From the NCBI GenBank assembly GCA_003999685.1, contig CP021223.1:2294001-2358000 (forward strand): a DNA stretch of 64,000 nucleotides, written 5' to 3'. Each line of letters starts with the position of its first letter. Position 1 is the stretch's first letter. The DNA comes from Taiwanofungus camphoratus (taxonomy: Eukaryota; Basidiomycota; Agaricomycetes; Polyporales; Taiwanofungaceae). A program made the position numbers and the translations under genes. Shown in pieces: positions 11,438-42,741 of this stretch. Under the pieces are notes generated by a model. The model saw only the letters and a list, made by a program, of their open reading frames with translations. It made no database searches and was not told where the DNA came from.

Positions 11438-11657
11438 GATGCGTTGGAACATGTAGTCTGCAAAATGAGTATTTATACTGCCTCGCTTTGATTGCTGGTG
11501 GCCAAAGTGACTTACTGTGCCTCCCTAACGCTGCAAAGATCAAACTAGTGTAACAAACGCTTAGATCGTCAAAGATTTTCGAAATTTTACCGTGGCGTGT
11601 TTTGGAGGCATTCAAGGTGAAGTCACCTCATGCTTTAAATGACTGATAAATTGCAAT

Positions 11658-12705: not shown

Positions 12706-12882
12706 TACCAAATTTAGAAGTGGCGCTCAAGTTCAGACTGGAATGGGGTACCTTAATCAAACAAGCTGTCCGTGATACGAGTGCTGGCCAACGTCACTTG
12801 CGGTCGGTTCGCCAGTACGCTATATATCCCGTGATGCCCATTGGCTCCAAAAATCGCAGAACAACCGTCTAATACAAGCGGT

Positions 12883-16579: not shown

Positions 16580-17471
16580 CGTATCAAGCAATGGAGAGCA
16601 GGATGCTGAACTCGGGAGGTGGATTGACCCATCATGTGCTGAAATCCGTGTACGAGAAATGCTGAACCGAGAATTGAATTGCCCTATCAAGGCCACCGAG
16701 CGTCTTCGTGAGTAAAAAATGCCTGTCTAATCACAAGATAGTTCGTACAAACACAGACCTCAGAATGAATGTTCCTGACAAACTTTCGTAATTGGAACGA
16801 TGAATAACAAGGAGCGCCATGGCCAGCAGAGCGTGAGTTCGAGCGAATTGCGGTCGAGTCGCAATATTAATGCAAGCCAGGAAACGCATACTTCAGAGCG
16901 TCTGACAAGCCGGGCAGGAACGCGGGATGCTGTACTCTCTCAGCGTAATCTCGACTGAGCTAGGCCTGAGGCACAAAAAAAACCTTACGATCACTGGTGG
17001 CCGGATCCTTGACCTAGGTGCACGCATGATGAGAATATTTGGAGTCTGAGCAGAATTGAAGCCAAGTTGGTTGCTCGACGTCGACCACTTACTTGACTCA
17101 TGATCATTACTTACATAAAAAACCGCAGAGCGGGAATGATCGATAAATTTATAAATAACCACACATCTCGCGCCGCTCTATCCTAAATAACTGATACATA
17201 CCGAGCTAGCGAAGGTTATAATCGACATGGCCACCTTTCTAGGGATCCTGGCGGGTCAACGAGGAGGAGTATCGTCTTGTCAGGAGGGCCAGAGCGCTGT
17301 CAATATGCTCCCGAACCCGGTCAGTGAATAGTTACCAGGGCGCATGGTAAGCACTCCGTTATCTTGCACGTCGATATCGGACCCGGCCTGTACCCACGAC
17401 CTCGGAATAGACGAACAGATACCACTGAGGCCCTCAGATACTCCATATCTCGGTCTTTGTCCCTCATCGAC
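16580..17471. other. Divergent intergenic region, likely promoters
   Basis: Lies between the start of the alpha/beta hydrolase (minus) and the start of the asparaginase-like gene (plus). It should hold both promoters. A TATA-like AT stretch (TTTATAAATAACC) lies near 17148. Nothing else is recognised. Confidence 0.4.
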
Positions 17472-18866: not shown

Positions 18867-19451
18867 GTATGAAGGCAGCCCTTCCCAAATCCCAAAAAAA
18901 TTCCTCGGTCGGAATGGCATTTGCGAGATTCCGCTAGTGAGAGACCACGGCATTACAGAGTGCGCCCCAGTGCAACACGCAGATCGCACGTGTCGCGACT
19001 ATTATGAGGTAACACGGGAGACGGCACACCATATCTCACCTTGAAATATGCTCGGCAAATACTATTGCATATTGTGACCAATGCTGAGAGCTTTATTCAC
19101 GCGGCATATGGTTCTGCAAACTCTAGATATGTAGATGAATATTCACGAGTCATAAATTCTAGGGTGCAATTTATAAATTCTTATTGTTCTAATATATAGC
19201 ATTTGCTGGTTCAAATATGTGAACACCTGATAGCGTTACACATATGGTAAATGTGGTGTTCAATATGGCATCGATCCATATGTTCTCCCAATTTTATAAA
19301 TATGCGAGCTTGGATTATTCTGAATTTGTCCACTCACTGATGTTAAGATATGCTACAACTAAATACATAAAGAGATATTATAAATGTGGATTTACATATG
19401 TCAGGGTGTGATAGTGATTGGCACATGCAGAATATGTAGACACTGCAAATT

Positions 19452-19491
19452 GAGCGGTCCACTGAGTGGTCCACTGAGCAGTCCGCTGAGG
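19452..19491. repeat. Subterminal 12-bp array, left
   Basis: Three tandem copies of a unit of the form GAGYRGTCCRCT followed by GAGG. The mirrored array is at 39484-39523. CACTA-type transposases bind repeated motifs close to the ends, so these are candidate transposase sites. Confidence 0.55.
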
Positions 19492-19832
19492 TTAACTTAA
19501 GAGGCCAAACCATGTTTTGCAAATGCACCAAATGGCTCTAAGTACAGTGCATTTTGTTCGCACGTCTAAAGCCATCGTTCTACAGGCCGGGAACTGGTTT
19601 TGCTGTAGTAGAGTGATCTTACCATGCAGCACTAGCCAGACAGAATCTACCAGGGGCACAAGCTGAAGCTCAAGCTCAAGTCTTGAAGCACAATCAACAC
19701 AGACAGAGATACATTTGCAGGTATAAATGTAAAAAGGGATACAGAGAACTACACTACATGCGGAAGCAACAGAGCATTTGTCAAAGCATGAGCACAACAT
19801 AAGAAAATGAGGGCAACCGGAAGACTATCTAT

Positions 19833-22456
19833 CTATCTCCTCCTGGGCTTTACCCTTGGATCAACAATCCATATCAGATTCCTTTGATCTTCCGGTATTT
19901 TCTGACGATTACCATCCACCTGCAACATCCACGGACCCTCTTGCCCAGAATTTTGACTACTTGTTGCCTTGCCTATTAATCCTGCATTGGGACCAGCGAT
20001 AGTGATTGCAAGGGCTCCAGCGCAAGCTGGAGAATGTTTCAAGTAGTGAGGGGGGACCCACAACAGCGTCACTGACAATCATGTCTTGAACTCAACAGCC
20101 ACCTTACCATCCCGGGGTAGAAGGCCAGGGACAGTGTTCACCCGCGTACCTTTGTGCCTGCCATCTTCGAAGCCCACAACACCCTGTTCTTTGTGGGGCT
20201 TGATATTGACGAGCTGCATCGGCACGACATACGTCTCTAGTGCGCCAGCAAATGTCGGCAGTAAGAGCCACTCTGCAGTTCCAGCTGCCAAAATATATAT
20301 CATTGTCGGTCAACATCTACACGAAACATCAGTACTCACGTGTGGGTACAAAATCCACAGGCACAACTGGTGTTTCTGGTGTCTGTTCGTGAAGTAATGA
20401 ATGCAAGTCTGATAAACCTGGCATTCGAGAGGATGGATCTCACACGAGATCAACGGCTGACACTGACAACGATTCAGTGGATGCTTCAAGTTCGAGGACA
20501 GAAGACTGGGGAGTGGAGGGGGGAGCAGGAGTAGAGGGCCGAGGAGTAGAGGGCCGAGGAGTGGAAGGCCCAGGGAATTGTGCCCCCACACCCTTAGACC
20601 TGATTTGAATTGATGGGTCGAGAGGGAGAAGTTGACCACCATGGGACCTGAGTGGATATACATCAGCATCCATTTCAATGTTAAAAGGGGGATACATATA
20701 CCAGAACGCTAGCTGCGAGAAAGAAAATGCATACAACTGTCCAACTGGTGTCACCATCTCAACGTCAATTGTCGAGACATTGACACTTTTAATGTATCCC
20801 AGATAGCCCTTGAACGGGCCTGAGATGATCTGGACCATCTGCATAATTCATGGATTATGCATCGGACGGTTAGAAAATAAGCGCATATTGCTCAGTACGC
20901 TCTCTGGATTCGCAAAAGTTAGTTGTGGGTCATGCCATGTAACGTCGTCTTGCAACACTTCGACCTGTGAGAATGAATGTCAGCAGTTATAGAAGGTTTC
21001 AAAAAAAAAGGCGCGCACTCTCATCTGTGTGACGCTCGGCGAATGTCAAGTCTGCCGTGCCTACAACTATGACGATACCCTCTTGCCCATACTGCGCACC
21101 TGCTTGTACTCTCACATTGTCGCCAACTTTGAAGTGGCACTGCAAGCATCCAAGAGGCACCGAAACAATGTCGACTGCAACATCTTCACCTCATATATTG
21201 ACCGTGTCCAGACCAATTTCCGCAATCCTGTCTGTTAGTGTCAAGATACGACCTTGAAGACCTGTCTGCTCGCTGGAAATGATTCTCACCCGATCTCTTT
21301 GAGCCATGGCTGCTTGAGAATTTGCAACAGCCAGCCTGCGCAACGCATCCCGGGATACAAACGAGGCTTGAGCAAAGACCATAAATTCCTCCTGACTTGC
21401 TTGAATGTCATGGATATGAAGCACTGTTGCCGGTTGGCAGAGTCTGATGAAACCATCCTAATATATGTCTCGACGGAAAGTATATTTCCCGCCACTCGCC
21501 AGCACCGTATTGTCACTGTGGATTTTCTGAGTTTCCTGTATGTCAAACAGAGCAGGAACAGGACAATCACGCTTACCACGTTTGCCCTGTTTCTGCTTTT
21601 GCCATGTGTGGGTGCTCAAACGCGGTACCATCCAAAGCTCAGTGTCTGACTCATTATCAACTGAAGTTACATACACAAGGTCACCTTTGTACCTGCCCCA
21701 CCGTACCCTGACCCAAGAATCTGATGGAACGTCGTGACGAGAGTACTGCATTTTCAACAATGCGGCCCATTCTTTCAATGGCACAATAGCATATTCACAG
21801 TTTGCAAGACAGGAACCCATAACGTCCAGAAGTGCCTTCTGGATTGTAGTGGCCTCCACATACAAGTGGCCAACTACGCCAGAGAGCATGAAAATTGATA
21901 TGATTGTGAACCGACACGAGGGAGTGAAGAAAGAGTTGAGGATGCATTGGAACGTGTCCTTCTCCATCCCGGGCTAGAAAACGAGTTAGTATGAGCAATA
22001 GAATCACTAAAGATAAACTTACCTTGACATTGATGATCCACAAGGAAGGATTATTCAGGGTTGGCAGAAGCGCATGCGAAGGAAGAGACTCCTCCACCCA
22101 CCATTGGAACGTTGCACGAAAAGTATGTCGATACCTCTCAACAAGTCGCTGTGTAAGAGCCTCCGCAGACTCCTCAAGAACCTCCCTACTTGCCAGCCTC
22201 CTCATCTCACTATATTCCGGGTCGATAGTACCATGATCAATAAAATCTGCAGTAAACCGCTAGATGATTATGTGTCTTGTAACGGGTTTAGGATTCACCA
22301 GTCTCATCCTCCTCTTCCTCGCTGGAGTCGCTGTTGTGCTTGTTCACCTGCGCTTTGACATCAAGAAAGCGTGAAGTTGAGTCCTAAGCAGTGACCATCA
22401 GTATATCGCGCCAGGATACCTGATGGACTCACCAATCTGGGTCTCTTATTAGACAT
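19833..22456 (-). pseudogene. Spt5-like gene, left-arm copy (NGN and KOW domains)
   Basis: Mirror copy of 36519-39142. It reads outward on the minus strand, starting MSNKRPRL at 22456. The NGN-like part (VVGHLYVEA and YAIVPLKEWAALL) and several KOW motifs (for example VQIISGPFKGYLGYI) match transcription elongation factor Spt5. It shares four in-frame stops with the right copy and has one more near 20440, where the right copy encodes Trp. Spt5 partners with Spt4 on RNA polymerase II; whether this mobile version ever did so is unknown. Confidence 0.75.
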
Positions 22457-23871
22457 TATGCTGACGAGACTTACAATGTGCGAAAAGGTGGAACAAGCGA
22501 CATTCATCAAGAATTGCATGCTACAAGTTTAGGGCAAGACAGTTCAACCACCTTACCATAAATAGTGAAAACCTGCCACCAGTTGAGAAGGAACTAGGTA
22601 GACATCGCCAAATTGGAGGCATTCAGTAGCAATGGTGCCGAAAAGGATGAAGATGCACCAGTAGACCCAACTCCCCATAGGGCATGAGAAGACCTCCAGA
22701 CCTCCAACGATGCAAGCATGAATTCACCATCTACAACATCAGCATTGAGCACCTGCAGGTTGGCATTGGCCATGGCACGACCCTGCCGTCAAACGATATC
22801 AGAGTGCCACAGACATTCATTGCTATGAATACATCTTACCATGTACTGAATTTATTACCTTTTATTATCTTTCACTAATGATTCTGGGTTGCTGAACTTT
22901 ATTAACTAACACTATTTCATTTCTAGCTACTTAAGAAGGAAAGTAATGGTATACCAAGGTGTTGTAGCGGACCGCTGGTGGCAGCGCCAAAGTGCCACCA
23001 TCAGCGGATGAGAGAGATAATGAGGAAAGGAAAGAAAAAGAGGAAGCACAATGTGCAAAGAACATGGTGACGAGTTTAGGGCAAGCAGAAGTGGCAAGCA
23101 CGTGCTCAGTGGCTGTCAAAAGTCATGCGCAAGCTGCTGGGTCAGCGCGCTGCGAGCGGCTGAGCACGTGTACGCCAGTGATACTTGCTCTAAATTTGCA
23201 ACTTCAAATACCCTTCCTCTCCTGCTTTTGTACTCTTTCTTCGATGTCTCGCATCATGTAGATAGTAACCACAATAAGTCTTATGATGATTTTAATTTAT
23301 AGTAGTTCATAAGTGTCTTTATAATGCAATAAGAAAAAAAAAAGAAAGCATCATAAAGTCGATGATAATCCGGTAGAAATGGTGATATAAAGGTATAGAA
23401 ACACAAAAAGTAGTTGTAAGTAGGCTGCTTCCAATGTAGGTGGTCTACTTGACTGAAACAGACAGCGGTCGCTGCAGGCCATGTAGAATTTTCTATAGAT
23501 TGGGCCTTGAGGTGTGGCTATGGCACGTGCGTGCACAACAATTGCAGTGGTCAATTGGAGGTTTTGATACTGGTGCGTATGTTTTTTTTGTCTGAATTCC
23601 AGATCTACTGAAGATTGACGTTCAGATGCTTGTACGCTTTTTTGTTTGGCGTATTTGAAGTTCGATCAAGCATTTGTCTCAATTGTGAGTCCTCTCGTGT
23701 TGTGTAGCCATGTCCATCATGCTGACAACGGTACCATTCTTTATTTTTCACTATTCTATGTCTGGTTGGTACATCCTTGCAGTCAAAAGGAGCAGGGTGG
23801 CAGGAAGCTGAAGTGTACCAGCTTCATCAACCTTGTACGCTACAAACGCTACAGTTTCTGATTGCATTGTC
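22457..23871. promoter_or_regulatory. Arm control region between Spt5-like and inner gene (left)
   Basis: Non-coding stretch from which the Spt5-like gene reads outward and the accessory gene reads inward, so it should hold a two-way promoter. Visible sites are an inverted pair of the 11-mer CACGTGCTCAG (23099-23109 and 23160-23170) and a hairpin-like AGCGGACCGCT near 22967, a motif that also occurs in the right subterminal array. A GC-rich 22960-23180 island stands in AT-rich surroundings. Confidence 0.5.
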
Positions 23872-25753
23872 ATGCCTAGTTCTTCATCTGAAACCATCGA
23901 ATCAGATTCAGATTACAATATGCATTCCGTCAGTCCTACAGTCCAAATTATGGCTGATGGATGGTATCATGTGGTATGTTTGGTATTTCGGTGTTTTCTT
24001 ATCATTATTAAGATCACTATCGCATCTTAGACACCTCCAAGTCGTGACTTAGCGGAAACGCAGCCTTCCATAAGTGTGACCGGGTGGCAGTCTTATGTGA
24101 TATGTTCATTTAATCAGAATACATGTGTTTTATTGATCAAGTAGTATCTCATCAGCCTGGGGATGATGTTCAGGTTGAAGGCAATAGTGAGTGGGAAAGG
24201 GACGAAGTAGATCGAGCTTTGGAAGGTTAGCCTCACTCACTGTAGGGAAGAAACCTCTTTAATTATTTCTATTAGAAGAACAGATTACAAGTGCAAGAGC
24301 TTTCAAAGAAGGGGTGTCTACAGTAAGCCAGTATGTATATCTATCCAACAATTAACTTGAAGCCATTCCAGGTGAGTTGCAATGCCCAGCAGAGCCCTTC
24401 AGAGGGATTGCAGCCTACAGCACCAAGTGTTGGTGTGTCAGTGAACAATGAGACTATGCTTCCTTCACTAGTTAATGGAGCGGAGACATATCCAATGATA
24501 TACCAGTGGGTGCGATCAGCAGCATCAGAAGCAGTAATAACGGGACTCCATGAGGCTGTCGCTTTATTTTGTGAAGAGACATGCAACAACGAGGAACAGC
24601 GGAGAGATCTAGAAGATGTACTCAATGCGGTAGGGCACACAATTTGCAAAGCAGTTGCCCACAAGCTACAGACCCTGATGGGTATGATGGTGATTCGGAG
24701 GACTTTGAAAAGGACATGGAGCTAGAGATGTGTTCAGTGTGGAAGAGGGGAGTCAAGCAGGGAAGGCGTACAACCAATATATTAAACGTGAGTGTGATCA
24801 CATTGCATATAGCCGTTCTTGATAATTGCATTTTGTAGGATCAATTTCGTGAATATTTGTGCATGAAAGGGGTACTGCCCACTTGTGATGCTTGTCCGTC
24901 TGATTGCATAGATATCACAGCGGTTGAGGCTTATGCTGCTGGTACGAGCGATGGGCCAGATATTGCTGCCCCCAGACTAGATTGGATGGTGAACTTCAAA
25001 TCATCATGGAACAGGGAGACAATACATATTTTATCAAAGGATTTCTTAAGGGAAGTCAAAGCAGGTGACCATAGGCCGTTGGAATATGATCCTGTGGAGA
25101 TGAAGCTGGAGAAGATGATGGCAAGCTGCCAATCTAAGTTGCAACAAGTCCGAATGGACTTCCTTGCCATTCATGGTCAGCAGGCGATGAAGTTGCAGCA
25201 GAAGAAGATGGATAGCAAAATTCAGGCGAGGAGGAACACTCGATGAAGTGGGGTGAGTTGATGAGGCGAAACAATGTATATAGCTAACTCGATGACCCTT
25301 CAGACCTATAATCATTGTTGCAACATTGTGGATGCCCATCAGACCACCGATTCGTCGATATGGGGTCATATCAGAACAATATTAAATATTTTAGATGTTG
25401 GAGGAATGAGTTCTGATCAGACCGATCCGGAAAGTGTGGGAGTAAGTATTCACAACAAAAAATTACGAAGGGTTCCTTTGGAATGGCAGAATGCAGAATT
25501 AACCACACTCTGAAAGCAGATAGATTCATATGGCGATTCATTGTTGTCACAGGGCCTGTTGCGGGGTAACAGGCCATATCCTCGATCTGTCGACCCAGCA
25601 GGTTTACCTTCATGTCGCCAGCCAATGTCCCACTTACCGGTTAATTTCTACAATGCGGAATGGTTGAAAGCTTGCTCCAAAAACCAGCGATTCAAATTAC
25701 ATCCGGGATCACCAGTCGCTATCCCTATGCTGGTAGGCATCAACCGTCAATAA
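23872..25753 (+). pseudogene. Accessory gene of the transposon, left side of the core
   Basis: Starts with MPSSSSETIESDSDYN in exon 23872-23973; the first 16 bases lie in the arm. Later exons are visible near 24120-24231, 24276-24320, 24362-24670, 24700-24790, 24838-25246 and 25300-25753, with short introns. The last part carries an acidic GGMSSDQTDPE segment and PMSHLPVNFYNAEWL. This C-terminal pattern (GMSSD, then LP-NFY--WL) is one I associate with proteins encoded in Agaricomycete Tnp2-type elements; the function is not known. One in-frame TGA lies at 25511-25513, inside an otherwise open last exon. Exon borders in the middle are uncertain. Confidence 0.55.
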
Positions 25754-26050
25754 CATTTCTTTGACTACTAATTGAATCGGTTGTAGTCAGAGCATAAAGT
25801 CTCTGAGTAGCTCTCTCCTCACTCATGCACTAGCATTGAATTTTGTAGCATTACTTTCAATTATAGTGCATGTACAAACTGTAACATAAATTATAGACTT
25901 GAAAGTGAACAAGTGGAAGTGAACACTACCTCTGTAGTGCCTGTCTCGGTGTCACTGCACAAAATAATCTGTCAGGATCAGTAATCCTGCATAAATACTA
26001 TTGTGAGTGGCTACTTTGAGTAAACCTAGCGGTATTTGATACTCACATGT
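25754..26050. other. Core spacer, AT-rich
   Basis: Between the end of the accessory gene and the solo LTR. AT-rich with no recognised feature. Confidence 0.4.
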
Positions 26051-27542
26051 TGATACGACCTAGAGAGTCCTGGACTGTGGGGATGAACCTAGGGAGTAGG
26101 TCTGACACGTCCCAATGAGTAGGGAGAGAGCTAAAGCAGTGGGGTACCTGTGAAGGATACCAGAGGGAAAGGTGAGTGAAGGGACACGACAGAGAAACTA
26201 CCTAGACCACTGTCAGGGGCCTAAAAGTCTAGTATGTGCAGAGAAGTAAGGGGCCAATGAATCCTGCACGACAGGATTTTATGCCGAGGTGCGGACAGTC
26301 CCAGGAAGGTAGGAGCGTGGTCTTCTAATCCAATGGCAGTGGGCTGGTTGAATGCCAGCCAGGTGCAAAGGAGTCGAAGGAACTGAGAGCGTACTGGTAG
26401 TGAACCGAGAACCAAAAGATAAATCGAAAACTGATGTAATCGGGATAGGGGATACTGCTGAGGGCTGATGTCGTAGAAATGGTACGTAGGGCTGGCGTAG
26501 GCGATGACTGATAGGCTAGACTGTGCGCTACACGTGCCTATGAGGTATAATGAGGGCGGAGGCATGCCAGATGAGGAGGAGGAGGGGGACTGGTTACTCA
26601 GACTGAAGTTACTCCAACTTCGGGAACGTAGGACATAGGCAACGTAGAACTGCTGCGATATACAATATAATAGGACTGCTGGCTGGCGATAGGCGTAGAT
26701 ATGATGTAGAGGAACCTTGTCAGACTGTAGGGAAGCCTTAGAGCAGGGGAAACCCAAATCTGAACTCTGGGGGACAAGTCTGTAGATTCTGCGAGACAAG
26801 ACGGGAGCACGTATCTTCCCTCTCGTCTGGTAGGTACAGGAGACTACATAAAGGGTCCATGGTGTCAAAGTATCTTATGCAAAATAAAACTGAAGAAATC
26901 GAAAACAAACCGAAAATCGTAAAATCTAGAATCCAATTCGCGTACCATATGGGGAACTAAACTGAAGTAGGACATGAAACAGGGACACTGAATGCGGTAG
27001 AAAGGTTACCGGGGAATGGCACAAGGTGAGGGATTCTTATCTAGAGATCATCATATGGAAGGTGGGCTATCTAATCAGGCCTTGGAGGGGAACAGGGATC
27101 TAAAAGTGTTGAACCGTCAAGCCGATGCATAGGTGGTCTAGGCCATACCAAGGGATCATATGGACGTCATGAACAAGAGGCCGGGATTCCGGACCGAGGG
27201 ACCGAGGACCAGAACCGAGGACCGAAGACTGATAACCGAAGGACTCGAGATCGATGACCGAAAACCGAAGACTGAAGGACTTTTGCTCAGTTTTCCTTGG
27301 CCAACAAGAAGGAAGAGTATGAGGGACTGCTCTGTGGGATAGAGGCTTCCGAGGTGCGCTGTAGAACTTCCGATATCTGAAGTCTAGATAATGATGTTTT
27401 GACGCATTGACTGGATTTCTCGGGTGGCATTATGATGCACGGATGGTGGGTCTTTGTCCTGATGATCTGTAGAGTAGTCTAGAAGCGCATATAAAACCGA
27501 AAATAGGTGCTTTCAGGGCACAGAGGAGTACCAGACTTATCA
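26051..27542 (-). mobile_element. Solo LTR (1.49 kb) inserted in the transposon core
   Basis: On the minus strand it starts TGATAAGTCTGG and ends CGTATCA. It is collinear with the + strand copy 2373-6254 once the nested block there is set aside. It lies between the convergent 3' ends of the accessory gene and the transposase. No coding part and no clear target duplication. A purine-rich minisatellite (units like GGACCGA) near 27190-27275 has more units than in the other copy. Confidence 0.85.
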
Positions 27543-27860
27543 GCGTTATAAAGGCTTAAAAACGTAGGTGTGAGCATCCCATTCTATCTGCACGGCATGA
27601 CATATTTGGTGGGAACAGGGGATGATTTCTGGCTTGTCGTGCAGTTTCTTCATCTATAGCGATGCACCGAAGTTGGGATAGGCTAGAAAAGAATTGGACA
27701 TGGTTGTTGGAATAGATAAGTAATGATGGATTGCAAGGAAAAAGTGTTCAGTTCTTGCATTCTCATTGAAGTCATGAGAGGGAGTTGAAAATATCTGACA
27801 TATCAATCCAGGGACCAGCTTTGTCTCCCTGCGTACGGCCTGAAAAAATACAACACTATT
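27543..27860. other. Core spacer, nothing recognised
   Basis: Between the solo LTR and the last recognisable transposase exon. It should contain the transposase 3' end. No repeat or domain is seen. Confidence 0.4.
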
Positions 27861-30800
27861 TCATTCAGTTGATTTATGGTCCACATACTGAACACCCCAA
27901 ATTGTATAGCGGCTGTAGGGGAAGGCGTTGCATGTGAGTGACCATCCCATCAGTTCTGATTGTATCATATTGGATATTGATGATAGAGAATCGTAGATGT
28001 CTTGATCTAGCAATATCAGTGTAGACCAGTTGATTTTAGTGGTTCTGGTCTTGGGGGGATGCGTTGGGTTATCAATGATATCTTGGCTAAAGGTGTGGAT
28101 ATCTGTCATCAGAGTATCACGTTTATCTGCTCCGTAACAAGCTTCAAGGATTGGTGTACAGTCTTGGAGAATCTTTGGACAGTCGTCGTGCTTTAGAAAC
28201 ATTTTGATGTTTGCCACCGTGCAGAAAGCCTCCAGCATAGTTTTTTCTAGTTGACCTGTGAATGACCATGTAAGTGTGGTTCATTTTTCTGGATCAATGC
28301 ACCGCTGACCTTGCTTATTGTTTGTGTTGACCTGTTGTAGCATTCCTATAACCCTCTCAAACAGAAACATCCACCACCTATGTACTGGTCTGAACCGAAG
28401 GAGACACTCCCTCAAATGTAAGGAGTTGTGATGGTTAGGTAAGAGTTGGACTCCGGGCTGCAGGTCAAGGAGAGTAGACAAGTATGCATGCATGTGTTGC
28501 ATATATTGTCCTTTGTGTTCCATGGATGTCTGATATGAGATTGCCTGTCACACTGCACATGTGAGAAGCATAGTGCTGTGAGCTAAGGAATGGCGGTGCG
28601 CTTCATGTGCAGGTAGGTCAGTCATACCATCTCTGTACCACCATTTTATCAAAGATACAGGTAGCTCGAATTCAACACCAGCCTTCCATTCGTCAGCCTT
28701 GAGTTTTCCGTGGGCTTTGGTACCAATGGTTGGGGGTGGGCCACTTGAGTATAGTGGTCTTGTGGTTCTTGCAACGTCGTCCTGAATGTGTTTCAAGTCC
28801 TTCTTCGTGAATACCACACTGGGTACGTCTTTGTTTACTGGACTGGACACCTGTGTCTCTGACGCATATTCACTGACAATGTCTTCTCCAATTAACATAA
28901 TGTTCAGGGAGCCCGCTTCTATGACAGCAGCAGTCGGAGCTGCTGTGTTTGCGCTGCTTGATGGTGGGTTTAATTGGGCCTGAGTGAGCAAGTAAGTATC
29001 CAAGGTGTTCTACGATATTCACTGCAGGTGGACTCACCAGCAACGTATCAACAATGGTCACCTTTTTCAATTTTTTAGTTGCTCCCCAAGTAAATTGATT
29101 GATTTGTCTTTCTTGGCAAACATGTCTCAACGCATGTTTTGAACATCTCAGAAGCTTCTTGGATATTGGATTGGATGCAAGAATTCAGTTCACCTTAGCA
29201 ATATCCTTGTCAGATGCGCTATCTGCTTCATTGTTGATGGCGTTGGCTTTCCATTCACCAACCGGTGATGCGCACTATAACACTCCAACCCCAACGGGGT
29301 ACGACCTAGAGAAGCTGGAAGGCTATAGAACTAGTTAGTGTGGAGGGGAGAGTCAGCAGCAAAGGGTTTCCGATCTCAAATGGGTCGAGAGATGTCTACG
29401 AAGGTCTTCGATGACCTTCGGTGTGTGTCGCGACTGCTTGATGTAGCTTTAATGCGCTACTATGCTGTACTATACTAAGGAGAGGCTTAAATGTGAGAAC
29501 TTAGCTGATACACAGCCCTTCAAAATACTGTAGAAGGCGGACTTGGGTTAGAGAGAGATGCTAGCGCAACCCTTCGATGTGGCTCGAAGGCGGACGTAAG
29601 ACTGAACGCAACTCTTCGACGGATGTCAAAGACAGACGAGACGCAACCCTTCAAAATACTGTAGAAGGCGGATAGTAGACGCAACTCTTTGAACGTAATC
29701 GAAGATGGAAGGACACAGTAGAACGCAGTAGGTGACTGAATCGAAGGTGCTCTTCTTGAGCTCTGCAGGATGGGGGAAAACTTCTCTGTCGTTCTGAGAC
29801 ACCATACATCGTGTTTATACTACTGTACTATAATGTAAGGCGCATCGGGAGTGGCATAGTATGAGTGGCATCCTAACTACTTGCATACTACGAACTACAG
29901 AGTGGCCTGTAGAGGGGGTGGCTACTTGTCGTCACTAGAAAGGCTGAAACAAAGGAACATACATGAAATATGCTAAGACAAGACCTGGGGCCGTAGCATT
30001 ATCGAGTACATCGAGTGGCGCGTTGTAGCAGATCGAGCGATATCGGAGTGGTGAGACCAGTCACGTGCGAGGACATTGAGTGGCAACTGCGTATGACGTA
30101 TTGTGCGTAGAGGGACCGGTACACCGAAACATCGGACCAGAACTGGTGGAGTGGCGGTGGCGTGATTCGAGGCTATCGGAGAGTCCTGCGGTGGCTTTTC
30201 GGGCTGTATCGGACGCGTCGAGTGGCGTCAAAGCCATGACTAAGGTCCTAGGGCTGAGTGAGGGCACTCTGCAGGGCCTAGAAGTGCCTGGTGCCTATCA
30301 CCGGTACATCCATGCCAAGGACTGTTCTGAAATAATACTGAGTAATGCCGAGAAACAGATTGTGCATTGAGTCTACAACAATGTATCTTGTTGGATCCCA
30401 GTAAGGTAGGCGCATGAGCTCAGACCATCAGACACCATTTTGCTTGACTAATCTTGCCTGTTGAGCCTTGGTACTAGCATCCCGCCACTGAGAAGCGGCA
30501 TGCCGCACTTCATCCCCATTTTTCATCACCCAGATAGGCATGTCAATATTGTTGATATCTTTTGATTTCAGATGACACCAAGCACAGAAACAAGTTGACC
30601 CATGACCTGCCATTCCACTAACTTTACATGCACCAGGCAGATCGGCCACAAGAGTTGCGATGGCTGATCGAGCCTTTCGACCATGAGGATGCAGGTAAGT
30701 TCTTGAATACCAGATACCTTGTTCTCATGAGGGCAACAGCTTATTCACCAGTGGCCGCAAGAAATGGTTAACCTCATCAAGAGACAGCTCTTTGGGTCCA

Positions 30801-32391
30801 GGAATGACTCCCATTAAGTAGAGATTCTCTGGCTTGAAGCGGAGGCTAGGTGGTAGGTTCAGGCATGACATAACAATTGACCCAGTAGAAGCTGATTTTC
30901 CTGCCACTTTATTGAGGTAGGGATTGAACCAATCCACAGAGAGGGACCACAGTAGCCATAGCTCGTCTCCAGGACCATCTCTGAATGGCTTTCCATTGTA
31001 AGTGAAATCCTGCACAGTTGAGCCATCGCTGATGTCAGATAGATTGTGCATGCTACAGATTTCATTACCCCTTTGCATGGCTGCCTCCATACCAGGGCGG
31101 CAGAGAAGGCTGCCGACAAAGACATCAAAGTCTTGTACAGCAAATGGCTGAAGAGGTGCACGGATAATTTCACCATCTAGAACTTGATGAGTCATCAAAG
31201 TGGTGTTGCAGGGTGCACTGGATGGATGGCATTGGTTTTGGCAGCGGGAAGGATATATGGGTAAGTGCCCATCATAAGATGGTTTGTAGGTACAACAGCA
31301 CTTTGGGCAGGCTGCCCATATGGTGATTGTTGGTTCCAGGTCGAACACTCACCTTACACTGTGAATATTGCAAGGAAAGGTATCCAGAAGCTTCTGCTCT
31401 TGATAGGTGGGTCCATTACCCTGTCCCAGCGCGCATGTTACCAACACCTTCAGCATTTGTAAGGTGAAGTTACAAGAGGTGCGTGTAACATGTCCAAGCA
31501 CATTCAGGACCAACACGATCCACATGGAGATGAGGAGGAGAGGGTTGATCTTATTCAATGGATGATTAAACCATTTGACTAGGTACGTCGATATCAATTT
31601 ACATTCATTTTCAATGATGGAAAGGCATACCTGTACTAACTTGAGCTGCAGATTCCACTGCTTCTTGGACCGGTTCATTGCCTGACACCTGGACTCTCCG
31701 CTTGCTAATATCCTTTAGATGATCATTCATGCGTTCCATCATAGCATCCCGAAGTAAGCACATTTCCATTCCTTCTTCTTCAGCATATGCTTCTCTGACA
31801 GTGGAGCAGGTAGATTTCAACCATTTCTCCTCTTTCTCCAGTGCCTCCAGTGTCGAAGAAGTGGCTTCACTTTCTATCACCGCAGCGAGCGCATCCTTGG
31901 TCAACTGTGCGGTGTTGTTGACATGCAACGAGACCTCGATGTCAAGTAAGTACAATTCTTTATACGTCATTTTGTTACGCTCTAATGTGGGCAGATAGTC
32001 CATTGGTTGCTGAGCTGGACAGGGGGATTTAATGACCAAATCATCGGTGACCAGAAATGGTTGACTCACTTGGATGCCTCTCTCACAAGGCATCACATGG
32101 TGAGCCTGTACAACCCTTGTTTTGCATGGTGATGTTGAAGACTCCTTTGGTAAGGTCATCAACAGCTGTATTGGGAGTTGTGTTGGTAAGTGTTTCTTGT
32201 GGCTGTGATAAATGTCCCTCATGCTGTTTCTGTAAAAAAGTCATAGTGAACACATCAGAAAACATAGGATTTACTGAGGTATGTACCATTTCATTGTCAC
32301 AACGTTGATGCTTTCGGTACTCATTGTATCCAATTAGTTTTCCCCCACACTTGTGCGACTTGCAATTGCATTTGGACTGACGCTGTGACAT
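27861..32391 (-). pseudogene. Tnp2-type (CACTA/Plavaka-like) transposase, decayed
   Basis: Minus-strand gene, interrupted by an insertion at 29266-30300. From the N-terminus: a Cys/His cluster (CNCKSHKCGG...HQRC) at 32391; an acidic helical region (31611-32222); a zinc-ribbon-like AACPKCCCTYKP near 31310; the core with DWFNPYLNK and GVIPGPKELS (30725-31000); VADLPGACKVSG with a following C-x2-C (30560-30660); DPTRYIVVDSMHNLFLG (about 30335-30400); the ADEW segment (28640-28720); and a C-terminal HRWWMFLFERV domain (28281-28523). These are the marks of Tnp2-family transposases of Agaricomycetes. In-frame stops are visible, for example near 29185 and 30430, so it is not functional. Confidence 0.85.
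29266..30300. mobile_element. LTR-like insertion (1035 bp) inside the transposase
   Basis: Ends TGATGCGCAC and GTGCCTATCA, flanked by CCGG on both sides (29262-29265 and 30301-30304). Transposase coding resumes on both sides of the site, as expected for an insertion with a 4-base duplication. It has no coding capacity. Part 29510-29700 is made of short hairpin repeats. It may be a solo LTR or a small terminal-repeat element; the TGAT...ATCA ends resemble those of the LTR at 3594-5908. Confidence 0.7.
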
Positions 32392-33518
32392 TTGTTGTTA
32401 GATACCTGGGATTTGGTGGATGTTCTCAATACACACGTTGTAGATAGCGTATTTTTTATATATGCAGCTTGACAACACAAATATGAAGCCCATATCCATT
32501 GTATTGTAGTACTTTGTAAGATACTAAAAATAAGGAATTTCTTGTATTCTAATGGATGTGCACTAAGTTGGTAGATGAATGACACCTGTTGTGCAGCCAA
32601 ATATGTTCTGTCACTCTAATGTGCAGGTTCTTCAACTCTGAAGACCAGTTACACTTTCATGCCCTGGAGAGCCTTCCTCAGAAGTCAATTAATAGCAGAA
32701 ACATAGAGTATATTTTTCAAGTTTCAGATTTTATGTTACATAAGGCTAATCGACTATGAGCAAGCTCTGGCAGGTTGTCAGGCCAACTCACATTGTTCAG
32801 AAAATGTCATAATCTACCGGACGATAGATAGTGAGATCTACATACACTCCCGACGCAACGCAGTGAGAAACCTACTATATCTTTAGTTGTGAAACCTGTA
32901 CATGACTCTGAAACACTGCAGTGAGACCTGCCCCTTTGGCAGTGAGATTTAGATTAGCTGTGATGGATGACCAGATCAGGCGAGCAGTACAAGTCAAAAG
33001 GGACAACTCGCAAAAAAATTTCCCTTCACTCTCTTGTCCAGTAAGGTCCTATCCAAGTCTTCCATCCAGCAGCTGACCATCGTCCACTGCTCGCTAGCTC
33101 GAGTTTTTTAGCTACCCACCTTCCCCCCTGATGTACAGTACAGAGCGATCAATAGAAATAATAGATAGTAACATAACCTGGTGGGCAGCAGCTGCCAGAC
33201 TGAGGGCTGTGCTCCTTATGGCAAGTATGGTGTAGCTGGGCTCAACTTCAGTCTGATGAACTTTGTGAAGTCGATTGGTATATTGTAGTGTGTATTGAAT
33301 TTGAGACTTATATTACATAACATAAGTCTAATCGACGACAAGTCAGCTCTATCTAGTAGCCGGGTAATCTCGCATTGCGTCAGTATATGTTTATATTGTA
33401 ATGTATAAGAAAATAAATCTATGTCGCAGGAAAGATCTACTAATCAACATTATAAGTTGAACTGTCCTCACTAACAGCACTATTTCCACTATCCACAGCC
33501 ACAGAGATTAAGACATCA
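32392..33518. other. Core spacer between transposase and WD40 gene
   Basis: No gene recognised. Contains the likely transposase promoter near 32400-32700. Two related stretches (about 32720-32830 and 33290-33410) share a TACATAA...CTAATCGAC motif in direct orientation, which may be remnants of another insertion. Confidence 0.4.
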
Positions 33519-35103
33519 TCAGTTTCGAACATTACCCCTACATTGGTGACCACTGCTTGTAGCAAGGGATAGATTTCTTGAAGGAAGTGCGCATTGAACA
33601 CATTGATCACAAAGGTTGTAACGATGACAGTCAGCAGAATTTGCCGTCAACCCATGGTACCATCTCTTGCGGCCTTCAAGGACAAGTCGGAAGACATGTT
33701 TGAATGCATGTTCTCGCTCTGCTGATGGAAGGTTATTCAATGCAATGTCAGTTTGAAAGCAGTTACTTGACTTACATATGACCATATCTTGATGTCGGCT
33801 TCTCCACTGGATGCTGCAGTGACGATTAAAACCCGATTGCTATCTGAATACATCTGTCCAGGATAAATAACTATCTATATTGTAGGATATTCAAACTGAA
33901 CTCACCTCTACCGTCTGCACCAGAGTTCCTGCTGCACAACAAGGAATGAGGTAGTGTTTGCATAGAATCATTTTTGAACTGACCACTGCCATGCATAAGG
34001 CTTTCCAAAAATTGACCATTTTCTCAGTCAAATACTCTAGCAAACCCATCATCTCCACCACACACCACGTGTGTAGCATCAACTGCCACTTGCATGGGAT
34101 AGTTGCGCTGAATTGCATACGGAAACGAGCAGATGCGTTCCATAGACGGAAAGCGATACTGGTCCATGCCATCACACAAATTGGAGATGAAAACCATGTT
34201 CTGATCTGCGGCCAATGTGGCCCACCCACTATGGCAGTTGTTGGCGTAAGTCTGCTGAACACAGCAATCAAATGTATACGTACATGCATGTAGGGATCTG
34301 CTTTGACCACTTCAGTGACCACAGTTCTATACTGTAACAGAAACTGTATGTCCAGACATCAGATACGACATCTTGTAACATAATGATAAAGGACCTACAT
34401 TTCATGTGACTCAAGATAGTACGTCGCTATACTGGCACCATCGTCACAGAAATGAATGTTCTTTTCTATATATGGATGACTAGGTGGCATCTCATTGAGC
34501 TTTTCCATTGTACCTAGAAATTAATACTTGTAAACGGAAAATACATCGATGTACTCAGCAAAAAATAATATGATCACTTACTGCTTGGAGTCAGCTTCCA
34601 TACCTCTGTTCCACTGCTGATGCTGGCTATCCTGCCATAATGAGAATCAAAATCAACATCCTTGACAGCGCCATTGTGTGCAGCAGTCAAGGAAAGGAAT
34701 TCAAACAATGCCTGTAATAAATGTAAGAATGGAATAAATCTGAAGCTCACAACGCACTGCGCTATCCCGACACTCATAAATATGTAAAGTCCCATCGACA
34801 CAGCCAAATACAAAGGCCGACTGGTTCTTGCCATGACCTAATTCTATCCAGACAATTGCACTGATAGGTCCGTGAAAAAGGCACTGGATTTCCTGTAACT
34901 TCTCGCCAGATTGAAGGTTCCAGATGACGAGCAAAGCATCATCTCCACTGCTAAGTAACAAGCTTCTGTCAGGGCTGATGAAAATAGAATTAGCATCTTT
35001 GTAGTGGTGCCTGAGGGAGTGAACTAATATGAACTAATCACAAGTGTCAGCAGAGCAAATTAAATTCGTGTGTAGCAAGTTGTACCAATGAAGAACTAGG
35101 CAT
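33519..35103 (-). CDS. WD40-repeat protein carried by the transposon
   Basis: Starts on the minus strand with a tiny exon, 35103-35086 (MPSSSL); its first 16 bases are in the arm repeat. A 52-base intron follows and exon 2 begins at 35033. WD40 blades are visible: SPDRSLLLSSGDDALLVIWN, then FVFGCVDGTLHIYE, AAHNGAVKDVDFDSHYGRIA, and VCGGDDGFARVFD. The C-terminal part (HAFKHVFRLVLEGRKRWYHG) is not a blade. WD40 propellers are binding platforms; the partner is unknown. At least five exons; internal borders are not all certain, and whether the frame is intact throughout was not established. Confidence 0.65.
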
Positions 35104-36518
35104 GACAATGCAATCAGAAACTGTAGCGTTTGTAGCGTACAAGGTTGATGAAGCTGGTACACTTCAGCTTCCTGCCACCCTGCTCCTTTTGACTGCAAGG
35201 ATGTACCAACCAGACATAGAATAGTGAAAAATAAAGAATGGTACCGTTGTCAGCATGATGGACATGGCTACACAACACGAGAGGACTCACAATTGAGACA
35301 AATGCTTGATCGAACTTCAAATACGCCAAACAAAAAAGCGTACAAGCATCTGAACGTCAATCTTCAGTAGATCTGGAATTCAGACAAAAAAAACATACGC
35401 ACCAGTATCAAAACCTCCAATTGACCACTGCAATTGTTGTGCACGCACGTGCCATAGCCACACCTCAAGGCCCAATCTATAGAAAATTCTACATGGCCTG
35501 CAGCGACCGCTGTCTGTTTCAGTCAAGTAGACCACCTACATTGGAAGCAGCCTACTTACAACTACTTTTTGTGTTTCTATACCTTTATATCACCATTTCT
35601 ACCGGATTATCATCGACTTTATGATGCTTTCTTTTTTTTTTCTTATTGCATTATAAAGACACTTATGAACTACTATAAATTAAAATCATCATAAGACTTA
35701 TTGTGGTTACTATCTACATGATGCGAGACATCGAAGAAAGAGTACAAAAGCAGGAGAGGAAGGGTATTTGAAGTTGCAAATTTAGAGCAAGTATCACTGG
35801 CGTACACGTGCTCAGCCGCTCGCAGCGCGCTGACCCAGCAGCTTGCGCATGACTTTTGACAGCCACTGAGCACGTGCTTGCCACTTCTGCTTGCCCTAAA
35901 CTCGTCACCATGTTCTTTGCACATTGTGCTTCCTCTTTTTCTTTCCTTTCCTCATTATCTCTCTCATCCGCTGATGGTGGCACTTTGGCGCTGCCACCAG
36001 CGGTCCGCTACAACACCTTGGTATACCATTACTTTCCTTCTTAAGTAGCTAGAAATGAAATAGTGTTAGTTAATAAAGTTCAGCAACCCAGAATCATTAG
36101 TGAAAGATAATAAAAGGTAATAAATTCAGTACATGGTAAGATGTATTCATAGCAATGAATGTCTGTGGCACTCTGATATCGTTTGACGGCAGGGTCGTGC
36201 CATGGCCAATGCCAACCTGCAGGTGCTCAATGCTGATGTTGTAGATGGTGAATTCATGCTTGCATCGTTGGAGGTCTGGAGGTCTTCTCATGCCCTATGG
36301 GGAGTTGGGTCTACTGGTGCATCTTCATCCTTTTCGGCACCATTGCTACTGAATGCCTCCAATTTGGCGATGTCTACCTAGTTCCTTCTCAACTGGTGGC
36401 AGGTTTTCACTATTTATGGTAAGGTGGTTGAACTGTCTTGCCCTAAACTTGTAGCATGCAATTCTTGATGAATGTCGCTTGTTCCACCTTTTCGCACATT
36501 GTAAGTCTCGTCAGCATA
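35104..36518. promoter_or_regulatory. Arm control region between WD40 and Spt5-like genes (right)
   Basis: Mirror of 22457-23871. Here the inward gene is the WD40 gene and the outward gene is the right Spt5-like copy. The CACGTG-containing inverted pair is at 35805-35815 and 35866-35876. Confidence 0.5.
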
Positions 36519-39142
36519 ATGTCTAATAAGAGACCCAGATTGGTGAGTCCATCAGGTATCCTGGCGCGATATACTGATGGTCACTGCTTAGGACTCAACT
36601 TCACGCTTTCTTGATGTCAAAGCGCAGGTGAACAAGCACAACAGCGACTCCAGCGAGGAAGAGGAGGATGAGACTGGTGAATCCTAAACCCGTTACAAGA
36701 CACATAATCATCTAGCGGTTTACTGCAGATTTTATTGATCATGGTACTATCGACCCGGAATATAGTGAGATGAGGAGGCTGGCAAGTAGGGAGGTTCTTG
36801 AGGAGTCTGCGGAGGCTCTTACACAGCGACTTGTTGAGAGGTATCGACATACTTTTCGTGCAACGTTCCAATGGTGGGTGGAGGAGTCTCTTCCTTCGCA
36901 TGCGCTTCTGCCAACCCTGAATAATCCTTCCTTGTGGATCATCAATGTCAAGGTAAGTTTATCTTTAGTGATTCTATTGCTCATACTAACTCGTTTTCTA
37001 GCCCGGGATGGAGAAGGACACGTTCCAATGCATCCTCAACTCTTTCTTCACTCCCTCGTGTCGGTTCACAATCATATCAATTTTCATGCTCTCTGGCGTA
37101 GTTGGCCACTTGTATGTGGAGGCCACTACAATCCAGAAGGCACTTCTGGACGTTATGGGTTCCTGTCTTGCAAACTGTGAATATGCTATTGTGCCATTGA
37201 AAGAATGGGCCGCATTGTTGAAAATGCAGTACTCTCGTCACGACGTTCCATCAGATTCTTGGGTCAGGGTACGGTGGGGCAGGTACAAAGGTGACCTTGT
37301 GTATGTAACTTCAGTTGATAATGAGTCAGACACTGAGCTTTGGATGGTACCGCGTTTGAGCACCCACACATGGCAAAAGCAGAAACAGGGCAAACGTGGT
37401 AAGCGTGATTGTCCTGTTCCTGCTCTGTTTGACATACAGGAAACTCAGAAAATCCACAGTGACAATACGGTGCTGGCGAGTGGCGGGAAATATACTTTCC
37501 GTCGAGACATATATTAGGATGGTTTCATCAGACTCTGCCAACCGGCAACAGTGCTTCATATCCATGACATTCAAGCAAGTCAGGAGGAATTTATGGTCTT
37601 TGCTCAAGCCTCGTTTGTATCCCGGGATGCGTTGCGCAGGCTGGCTGTTGCAAATTCTCAAGCAGCCATGGCTCAAAGAGATCGGGTGAGAATCATTTCC
37701 AGCGAGCAGACAGGTCTTCAAGGTCGTATCTTGACACTAACAGACAGGATTGCGGAAATTGGTCTGGACACGGTCAATATATGAGGTGAAGATGTTGCAG
37801 TCGACATTGTTTCGGTGCCTCTTGGATGCTTGCAGTGCCACTTCAAAGTTGGCGACAATGTGAGAGTACAAGCAGGTGCGCAGTATGGGCAAGAGGGTAT
37901 CGTCATAGTTGTAGGCACGGCAGACTTGACATTCGCCGAGCGTCACACAGATGAGAGTGCGCGCCTTTTTTTTTGAAACCTTCTATAACTGCTGACATTC
38001 ATTCTCACAGGTCGAAGTGTTGCAAGACGACGTTACATGGCATGACCCACAACTAACTTTTGCGAATCCAGAGAGCGTACTGAGCAATATGCGCTTATTT
38101 TCTAATCGTCCGATGCATAATCCATGAATTATGCAGATGGTCCAGATCATCTCAGGCCCGTTCAAGGGCTATCTGGGATACATTAAAAGTGTCAATGTCT
38201 CGACAATTGACGTTGAGATGGTGACACCAGTTGGACAGTTGTATGCATTTTCTTTCTCGCAGCTAGCGTTCTGGTATATGTATCCCCCTTTTAACATTGA
38301 AATGGATGCTGATGTATATCCGCTCAGGTCCCATGGTGGTCAACTTCTCCCTCTCGACCCATCAATTCAAATCAGGTCTAAGGGTGTGGGGGCACAATTC
38401 CCTGGGCCTTCCACTCCTCGGCCCTCTACTCCTCGGCCCTCTACTCCTGCTCCCCCCTCCACTCCCCAGTCTTCTGTCCTCGAACTTGAAGCATCCACTG
38501 AATCGTTGTCAGTGTCAGCCGTTGATCTCGTGTGGGATCCATCCTCTCGAATGCCAGGTTCATCAGACTTGCATTCATTACTTCACGAACAGACACCAGA
38601 AACACCAGTTGTGCCTGTGGATTTTGTACCCACACGTGAGTACTGATGTTTCGTGTAGATGTTGACCGACAATGATATATATTTTGGCAGCTGGAACTGC
38701 AGAGTGGCTCTTACTGCCGACATTTGCTGGCGCACTAGAGACGTATGTCGTGCCGATGCAGCTCGTCAATATCAAGCCCCACAAAGAACAGGGTGTTGTG
38801 GGCTTCGAAGATGGCAGGCACAAAGGTACGCGGGTGAACACTGTCCCTGGCCTTCTACCCCGGGATGGTAAGGTGGCTGTTGAGTTCAAGACATGATTGT
38901 CAGTGACGCTGTTGTGGGTCCCCTCTCACTACTTGAAACATTCTCCAGCTTGCGCTGGAGCCCTTGCAATCACTATCGCTGATCCCAATGCAGGATTAAT
39001 AGGCAAGGCAACAAGTAGTCAAAATTCTGGGCAAGAGGGTCCGTGGATGTTGCAGGTGGATGGTAATCGTCAGAAAATACCGGAAGATCAAAGGAATCTG
39101 ATATGGATTGTTGATCCAAGGGTAAAGCCCAGGAGGAGATAG
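36519..39142 (+). pseudogene. Spt5-like gene, right-arm copy (NGN and KOW domains)
   Basis: First exons are clean: 36519-36542 (MSNKRPRL), 36592-36676 (Ser/Glu-rich), 36729-36952, then 37002 onward. The acidic N-terminus, NGN-like domain (PSLWIINVK, VVGHLYVEA, YAIVPLKEWAALL) and KOW units (WVRVRWGRYKGDLVYV, RVRIISSEQTGLQGRIL, NVRVQAGAQYGQEGIVIV, VQIISGPFKGYLGYI, IADPNAGLIGKA) follow the order of Spt5, with a Ser-Thr-Pro-rich stretch between the last KOWs. The frame continues across TAG at 37515 and TGA at 37782, 38125 and 38894, all explainable as C-to-T changes. It is better preserved than the left copy by one stop. Confidence 0.78.
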
Positions 39143-39483
39143 ATAGATAGTCTTCCGGTTGCCCTCATTTTCTTATGTTGTGCTCATGCTTTGACAAATG
39201 CTCTGTTGCTTCCGCATGTAGTGTAGTTCTCTGTATCCCTTTTTACATTTATACCTGCAAATGTATCTCTGTCTGTGTTGATTGTGCTTCAAGACTTGAG
39301 CTTGAGCTTCAGCTTGTGCCCCTGGTAGATTCTGTCTGGCTAGTGCTGCATGGTAAGATCACTCTACTACAGCAAAACCAGTTCCCGGCCTGTAGAACGA
39401 TGGCTTTAGACGTGCGAACAAAATGCACTGTACTTAGAGCCATTTGGTGCATTTGCAAAACATGGTTTGGCCTCTTAAGTTAA

Positions 39484-39523
39484 CCTCAGCGGACCGCTCA
39501 GTGGACCACTCAGTGGACCGCTC
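39484..39523. repeat. Subterminal 12-bp array, right
   Basis: Mirror of 19452-19491, with the unit AGYGGACCRCTC in tandem. One base differs from the left array. Confidence 0.55.
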
Positions 39524-39945
39524 AATTTGCAGTGTCTACATATTCTGCATGTGCCAATCACTATCACACCCTGACATATGTAAATCCACATTTATAATAT
39601 CTCTTTATGTATTTAGTTGTAGCATATCTTAACATCAGTGAGTGGACAAATTCAGAATAATCCAAGCTATAAAATTGGGAGAACATATGGGTCGATGCCA
39701 TATTGAACACCACATTTACCATATGCGTAACGCTATCAGGTGTTCACATATTTGAACCAGCAAATGCTATATATTAGAACAATAAGAATTTATAAATTGC
39801 GCCCTAGAATTTATGACTTGTGAATATTCATCTACATATCTAGAGTTTGCAGAACCATATGCCGCGTGAATAAAGCTCTCAGCATTGGTCACAATATGCA
39901 ATAGTATTTGCCGAGCATATTTCAAGGTGAGATATGTCTCCCGTG

Positions 39946-40300
39946 ATATCGACATTCGACACCATTTTATTCGCGAACGGATCGTCTCTCACGAGATCGC
40001 CGTTCCCCACTGCGCATCCGAAGACAACTGCACGGATTTACTGACCAAGCCGCACGCTCGCGTTACACACGAGTCTCAGTGCCAGCGCCTTGGACTATCC
40101 GCGCGTTGAGGGGGAGTGTTGTGGAGACGATTATAAATACATTACTATAGAAAGTAATCTACTTACTAAGAAATCATGTACCTACTCGAATATTCGACAA
40201 GTGGAGCCCCGAACAGCTATAAAAGCTTGCACGGGCGCTCCGGCGGTAATGTAGCTTCTTTTCTCACGCAACGCTCTCCAGCGACACTCTCAAGAAAGCA
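39946..40300 (+). mobile_element. Ty1/copia fossil: RNase H tail, polypurine tract and start of 3' LTR
   Basis: The first part reads as the C-terminus of copia RNase H (DIDIRHHFIRERI, then DNCTDLLTKPH, then QRLGL). It ends at a GAGGGGGAG polypurine tract (40108-40116) directly followed by an LTR start TGTTGTGGAGACG at 40117. A TATAAAAG box lies at 40220. The LTR end is not found, so the right border is approximate. Broken remnant; it abuts the end of the large transposon. Confidence 0.75.
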
Positions 40301-40615: not shown

Positions 40616-42278
40616 ATGGCCGCAACGCCCGGCCAACAGTCCAAGGGGCATACTTCGCCGTCTAAGGTGAGCTTCTACCGCATCCGATATTCTTAGGGCA
40701 GGCGACAGCATTCTTGCCACGGGTCCTTCACATGTCGATGAGCCAGTATATTTCTCAGAGGCACATCCGCAGGCTATATGCCTGGCATGGACCTTGCCTT
40801 GACTTGATCTATTTCAATTTGTGTGATGAACACACTGGTACAATCGTATGTGAAAGATGTGTTGCTACTGTCTCACCGTCGTCTGCCGTGGGATTCTATC
40901 ATCAGGAAGCAATCTAAGTTCATCGCATCGCCTCTGCGTGATTGTATTCTACCCACTAGGCTTTGTCCTCTCGCACTTATGACTCCAAATTGGTGTCCCG
41001 CGAAATGCATCGCTTAGGCAATCTCGCGCACTTGCCCACGCTTCCCCCTTCGCTCACCGCGGCACAATCCACCGTTTCTCTTAACATGGCTCCAAGCACT
41101 GGAGGCAGCACATCGGGATCGTCCGACAATCCGTGGCAATCGCTTCATGTACATGTTCTCCCGTTATTCAACGGCGAACCTTTGCGAGTGCCAATGTGAG
41201 TACGAGTTGATATTCAAACACGGTTCACTAGAACGAGGTACAGCGAAGATCTCAATCAACTCGTCCGACACCACATCCAGATGGTCGTCTCATCAGCACC
41301 GTCCAAGGCGCTCGCTACCCTCGAACATGATGCGTCAGAGCTCATTGCGTCTGGAATGGTCACTCTCAATGCAAAATTGACAGGGATAGAGGATGAGAAG
41401 CTTGTAGTTCGGGTGGTTGAGTTGTGGGGTTTCTTCTGGGATCAAGTCTTGCCTTACGTCGAAGGAGTAAGTGGACTTCTTTCTCATGTTTATAGTGAGG
41501 GGTTATAATTGTGTCCAAAAGGCTTTGTTACCCCTGCAAACAGATCCACTGCTCTCATCACTGTATCGCATGCCCAAAGCGCACAAGTCATCAACGCCCA
41601 TCGCGGGCCAGACAGGAAAAGGCTCCATATCTTCACTCATGCTTCAGTCTACCACCCAGATAGATGTGCGCACGGTAGCATTGCAGTCGTTCCGCGATCG
41701 GATCATCCTGCCAGCATTCCCGCGCTTATATGCGCGACTAACCATGCCCAAGGAAGAGATGCTTCCGGAGAGCCTTCTATCCCATCAGCCGCGGTTACAG
41801 CAGATGTAAGCAGTCCTGTCTTCTGGACATTTTGCCATCTACCCCCTTTGTCTGATGTCTATATTTCGAAATTGTTCTCTCAAGGCTCCTTGTTTCCCAA
41901 CGTCCTCAGCGGCCGATTTCATTTTCTCTGACAGCGCCTCCTCCACAACCGAGCGCTGGGGAGGCAGCAGTCCAGTATCTTCTACGTGCCGTTCGTGCGC
42001 CGCTCCCACAGCTGTCACGTAATCGAGAGCTCTCAACTGGTGCCCCATCTTTCCTATCTGCTGGCGCGCCGCGTGACCGGCGCGGGCGAATTGCACAGAA
42101 ACATGATTTGCACGGAAGGCGGAGTAGTAGTGGAATCAGAGATTGCATTATGGTGCCGGATGACGAAGATGGTGAAGGTCAAGATGTAGAAGGATGTTCT
42201 TCGAAGAAGCGGCAAATACATCTTTCCATTGAACTGAGTCAAGAGAAAGAGATGAAAGCCAGGGGAATACCGAAATGA
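40616..42278 (+). CDS. hbrB: HbrB/Bit61-like TORC2 subunit with a replaced C-terminal tail
   Basis: Five exons (40616-40666, 40960-41195, 41244-41466, 41522-41805 and 41885-42278) give 395 residues. TYDSKLVSREMHRLG, then LHVHVLPLFNGEPLRVPIED, then LWGFFWDQVLPYVEG and DVRTVALQSFRDRIILPAFP are HbrB-domain signatures. HbrB/Bit61 (Protor-like) is a TORC2 subunit linked to hyphal branching and actin. The frame crosses the edge of the duplicated F-box block at about 42184. The last roughly 30 codons are antisense F-box sequence, with the stop at 42276. Intron 1 is unusually long (293 bases). Core domain intact; likely functional, with a novel tail. Confidence 0.85.
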
Positions 42279-42722: not shown

Positions 42723-42741
42723 GACACAGCCATGCAATGTT

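Follow-up and report, generated by a model that had tools for sequence, protein, structure and literature searches.

EnSpm/CACTA transposons have short terminal repeats and many dispersed subterminal motifs. In fungi, CAC..GTG termini and 3-bp target-site duplications are given as consistent features of EnSpm elements, and accessory genes (TET/JBP) occur in fungal EnSpm/CACTA elements (PMC12730594). Terminal inverted repeats reach up to 1,735 bp in Tetris of Drosophila, and a proposed route to foldback elements is that terminal repeats grow longer (PMC4079207). A locus of Caenorhabditis elegans has 2,207-bp inverted arms of 99.7% identity, a 126-bp spacer and paralogous gene pairs, and the human Y palindromes are cited in the same paper as inverted repeats kept alike by conversion (PMC1803023).

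Here we describe a palindrome in which two inverted arms (19013-23887 and 35088-39945, neither assigned a strand) enclose a core of 11,200 nt within a 64-kb window, the whole stretch of DNA that was analysed. The right arm is an inverted copy of the left, and the two pair in a block of 4,581 nt (19307-23887 with 35088-39668) and another of 269 nt (19030-19298 with 39668-39936). Compared by BLAST over 4,858 columns, the arms are 99.588% identical, with 11 mismatches and 9 gap positions, which bears out an earlier, sequence-only reading that they match almost base for base. The pairing rule given in that reading, i with 58975-i, holds for the inner 4,581 nt but fails further out, where it becomes 58966-i outside a 9-nt indel and 58958-i for the last 10 nt. 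At its outer end the left arm has CACGGGAGAC (19013-19022), followed by an 8-nt stretch absent from the right arm; the right arm has GTCTCCCGTG at the mirror position (39936-39945), so that the terminal sequence prolongs the arm match beyond this left-only indel. Inverted arms of this length are far beyond chance.

In total, 11 substitutions and two small indels distinguish the arms, and all of these are confined to the outer 1.86 kb. The inner 3.0 kb of the left arm (20870..23887, without strand) is identical to 35088-38105 in the arm alignment. Each arm also carries a tandem array of a 12-bp unit (3.3 copies; 19451..19490 on the plus strand, mirrored at 39485-39524), about 440 nt from the arm end; the 12-bp subterminal arrays reported earlier are present, but as just one short tandem array per arm. 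By BLAST the arms match only each other, and no third copy was found in the 64-kb window. Nor does the window contain a further exact CACGGGAGAC that could represent an original right end elsewhere. Six 10-mers with one mismatch to this sequence were found on either strand, two of which are mirror images within the arms.

The core encodes a Tnp2-type transposase, as had been proposed. The gene (27864..32240, minus strand, limits set by eye) matches PF02992 at about 30950-30556 with E = 4.8e-10 (39.4 bits) and 1.7e-11 (44.2 bits), above the cut-off of 28.6 bits, and its part below 29009 was included on account of its position and of a weak match to the C-terminal DUF4218 (E = 0.14). In-frame stops stand at 30727, 30430, 28550 and 28283 in the two stretches counted. 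A WD40-like gene (33440..35103, minus strand, limits by eye) is found next to the right arm and belongs to the core rather than to the arms; its Pfam WD40 match (E = 0.0012) is under the curated cut-off, several other beta-propeller families match it too, and an in-frame stop was seen by eye. On the opposite side of the core, a gene adjoining the left arm (23872..25246, plus strand) has its apparent ATG and first 16 nt in the arm and the rest in the core. No Pfam match to this gene reached the cut-off, and by position only it is a candidate for a TnpA-like accessory protein. The Pfam frame scans covered the core except the minus strand of 24015-25200 and the plus strand of 33793-35087.

Two additional features of the core were observed. 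The transposase gene has a probable 1.03-kb insert (29267-30299) between a pair of ACCGGT sequences; as an insertion signature this pair was rejected, being no better than chance, with an estimated ~10 six-base matches expected in the positions scanned. A further repeat of ~1.2 kb inside the core (26051..27241, without strand) is 87-88% like an inverted copy in the left flank (2748-6254), which is split by ~2.3 kb of other sequence.

Within each arm, an Spt5-like gene sits on the outward-running strand. The left copy (20446..22340, minus strand, limits set by eye) has NGN and KOW motifs; in a six-frame scan of the left arm, KOW5 (1.1e-6) and KOW1 (1.1e-4) were above the Pfam cut-offs and NGN (0.004) was below. 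Solved Spt5 chains are the top structure matches for this gene. Its in-frame stops at 21460, 21193 and 20850 recur as the same three stops (37515, 37782 and 38125) in the mirror copy (36635..38529, plus strand). The earlier claim of a whole gene in each arm is thus right as to the presence of an Spt5-like gene, but that gene is interrupted by three in-frame stops common to both arms. Similarly, the Spt5-like and WD40 genes described as captured both exist, but capture itself is unproven, the closest solved Spt5 being distant (best E = 9e-10).

Given stops in both the Spt5-like gene and the transposase, the element appears dead. The counts of stops and of codons one transition from a stop are 3 and 45 for the Spt5-like gene, and 2 and 25 and 2 and 29 for the transposase. 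Across the Spt5-like and tnp2 frames read, stops account for 7 of the 106 codons (6.6%) at or one transition from a stop, in reading frames set by hand, where an overlooked intron could hide a stop. TGA makes up six of the seven in-frame stops; its reassignment is an unlikely cause of them. Differences between the arms amount to 11 positions over 2 x 2,214 C/G sites, or 0.25%. In this rough comparison, a gap of some 25-fold between the stop fraction and arm divergence indicates that most of the decay had taken place before the arms grew alike. Since an older palindrome undergoing conversion would look no different, lateness is established for the identity of the arms and not for their inverted structure.

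The pattern of the arm differences points to how this identity may have been maintained. All 11 substitutions are transitions, five of them at CpG (P = 0.008), and CpG observed/expected is 0.54-0.67 in the left arm and core versus 0.82-0.83 in the flanks. The inner part of the arm offers 1,368 C/G sites and the outer part 846, yet every substitution is in the outer part (P = 2.5e-5 if uniform). This restriction of transitions to the outer 1.86 kb suggests conversion over the inner 3.0 kb, which is a simple reading of the uneven divergence; uneven methylation would be a rival cause of the contrast between outer and inner parts. Arms more alike than their age, together with a patch of perfect identity, are found here, as is looked for in a repeat kept alike by conversion.

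The element has CAC..GTG termini, with CACGGGAGAC at 19013 and GTCTCCCGTG ending at 39945, and the earlier suggestion of a CAC start fitting CACTA-like ends is sound for both sides. TAA stands before the left end and ATA after the right end, and no target-site duplication is visible at either outer end, whether in these bases or in an offset scan. The scan, allowing offsets of about a dozen bases for words of 4-11 bases, yielded one match, TATG, which was rejected as a target duplication because it is only a displaced 4-mer. A later deletion at one flank would likewise erase a 3-bp target-site duplication. Beyond the ends, neither BLAST nor the offset scan matched the left flank to the right.

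Judged by their sequences, the two flanks look of different origin. To the left is an asparaginase gene (PF01112; 17556..18866, plus strand) whose last exon and stop were placed by eye, the apparent stop falling 146 bp before the element. To the right, 39949..40097 (plus strand) reads as the last ~50 codons of a Ty1/copia pol, presumably so from its motif, cut by the element's right end; this copia-like tail had no PDB match and no Pfam match. A host gene with an HbrB domain (PF08539, E = 4.9e-28) lies beyond it at 41122..41728 on the plus strand. After a plain insertion into copia, the remainder of pol should stand immediately to the left of the element in the same orientation, yet a plus-strand scan of 16501-19502 shows asparaginase only. 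With the stops, the lack of a target duplication, the unlike flanks and the late identity of the arms, a working palindromic transposon that moves as a 20.9-kb unit is not supported.

Further out, direct paralogous segments that are 83-89% identical (10887-14721 and 42185-44617) flank the element, and the first of these includes a weak match of F-box type that falls short of the cut-off (E = 0.0013). A long open frame at 60901-62589 spans 563 aa from stop to stop, or 514 aa from a GTG, and matched nothing in Pfam at E up to 0.1.

Precise terminal ends with unlike flanks at both outer joints would also be expected if a transposase acting in trans had paired the ends of two nearby copies and so produced a mirrored structure, by reversed-ends or sister-chromatid transposition as in maize Ac/Ds. 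According to excerpts of the maize work, such events yield flanking inverted duplications and deletions, but their breakpoints carry 8-bp target duplications (PMC3744419), and none is present here. Additionally, the inner joint at 35087/35088 is not at a terminal repeat. We consider alternative transposition very improbable as the origin of this locus.

At the inner joints, 23887/23888 and 35087/35088, each arm closes with the same 16 nt, ATGCCTAGTTCTTCAT, containing a common ATG (23872 on the left, 35103 on the right). From the left joint, the frame continues into an acidic first exon and then a probable 57-nt intron with a GTATGT donor. At the right joint, the next two bases complete the sixth codon of the WD40-like gene, whose apparent first exon, ATGCCTAGTTCTTCATTG, begins in the right arm; a putative 52-nt intron with a weak GTACAA donor and a TTAG acceptor follows, and beyond it the WD40 frame is open in phase. 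Both arm-adjoining core genes seem to start within the arms, at the same ATG, and if both gene-start readings hold, the arms would give promoter and start codon to two different genes. This apparent common start for two unrelated genes is the strangest feature of the locus, one recognised post hoc.

Misjoins are known to arise at long inverted repeats, and the disagreement between left and right flanks would fit an assembly artefact in which an arm was wrongly attached, for example where two element copies or haplotypes were joined through a common arm. However, the arms are separated by 11 transitions and two short indels, the indels not being homopolymer runs, which suggests that two distinct copies do exist somewhere. 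Both inner joints also enter core sequence that BLAST found nowhere else in the window, and an apparently in-frame gene start crosses each of them. An artefact of this kind seems to us improbable.

We lean, if only slightly, towards reading the locus as a dead EnSpm/CACTA (tnp2) relic, probably from a basidiomycete, whose ends were made into the same 4.85-kb arm by late recombination. A mushroom-type basidiomycete is suggested by the gene content of the window, its splice signals and its small introns. The most likely route to mirrored ends, and the one we favour, is a fusion of two inverted copies. In this scenario, two inverted copies of the element would have lain near each other, the first next to the asparaginase gene and the second within a copia element. 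Through a deletion, one copy's WD40-like gene may then have become fused to the start region of the left gene in the other copy, with loss of the right ends, of the copia element's 5' part and of the intervening DNA. One such deletion would account for the unlike flanks, the absent duplication, the truncation of the copia gene and the sharpness of the palindrome's centre. Neither parent structure is seen in the 64-kb window.

Two points complicate this fusion. Random breakage would not be expected to hit the opening codons of two different genes; had the two start regions shared homology beforehand, they could have recombined in the ordinary way as direct repeats, and this would account for a joint at the ATG. 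Moreover, a two-copy fusion alone does not restrict the differences to the outer part of the arms, and conversion must be added: it would afterwards have kept the inner 3.0 kb identical as the outer parts gathered C:G to T:A changes. A variant in which one end was converted onto the other within a single element, anchored at the terminal repeat and the start region, is nearly as good and requires a separate deletion at the left flank.

The same inner and outer boundaries bear on a different possibility, that the arms are ancestral. This copy would then be a dead member of a family with long, gene-bearing terminal arms that evolve in concert by gene conversion, and besides its Spt5-like gene each arm would contain a promoter and the opening codons for a different core gene. 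On the outer side homology ends at CACGGGAGAC, and on the inner side no more than 16 nt from a shared ATG, at two different genes, as such a family would have it; an inner 3.0 kb free of differences next to an outer part that has diverged is consistent with a conversion tract. Long gene-pair inverted repeats have also been long kept alike in Caenorhabditis, according to an excerpt of that study (PMC1803023). However, the target duplication is absent and the flanks are unlike at this copy, and, since stops interrupt the gene in the arms, they are not at present maintained by its function. The viral and prokaryotic collections contained no other copy, which weighs little. We regard an ancestral family as possible but doubtful. 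A self-mirroring fungal EnSpm family, in which converted arms drive an unknown gene and the WD40-like gene from the same promoter and ATG, is in our view unlikely.

Searches for protein relatives gave 3, 5, 16 and 10 pattern matches in viral contigs and 38 in prokaryote contigs, none of them confirmed. As the collections searched were viral and prokaryotic, not fungal, absence there says little. One viral contig found with an arm-end DNA pattern (L001) was dismissed as chance, since its sole match in the window was 17 nt long (E = 0.17) and lay elsewhere. Among the matches listed in the open-access literature, by titles and the starts of abstracts, no such gene-armed transposon was found. If the arms are ancestral, the locus would represent an architecture in which two genes are driven from mirrored copies of one start region, for which those matches held no description.

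Compared with known systems, this locus resembles the EnSpm/CACTA (CMC) elements of fungi in its tnp2-type transposase and CAC..GTG ends, as these are described in the excerpted account (PMC12730594). It differs from them in its 4.85-kb gene-holding arms with one short tandem array each, in showing no 3-bp target-site duplication and in having a transposase with stops. Very long terminal inverted repeats, a trait of foldback elements and of Galileo and Tetris in Drosophila, are present here as well. In contrast, those elements are assigned to other superfamilies (P, Mutator); complete copies of Tetris show target duplications, and its arms contain tandem repeats. The excerpts of the Galileo and Tetris accounts examined mention no protein gene in the arms, whereas the arms here hold an Spt5-like gene. 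The gene-pair repeats of C. elegans likewise have long inverted arms involving genes, but the present case is a dead transposon that has terminal ends and whose core spans 11.2 kb. The rearrangements of maize Ac/Ds alternative transposition share with it a start exactly at transposon ends (PMC3744419, in excerpt). By transposase and ends, the placement of this element is with EnSpm/CACTA, and its resemblance to foldback elements is in form only. If it is a relic, it offers a clear snapshot of recombination turning a cut-and-paste transposon into a long-armed palindrome.
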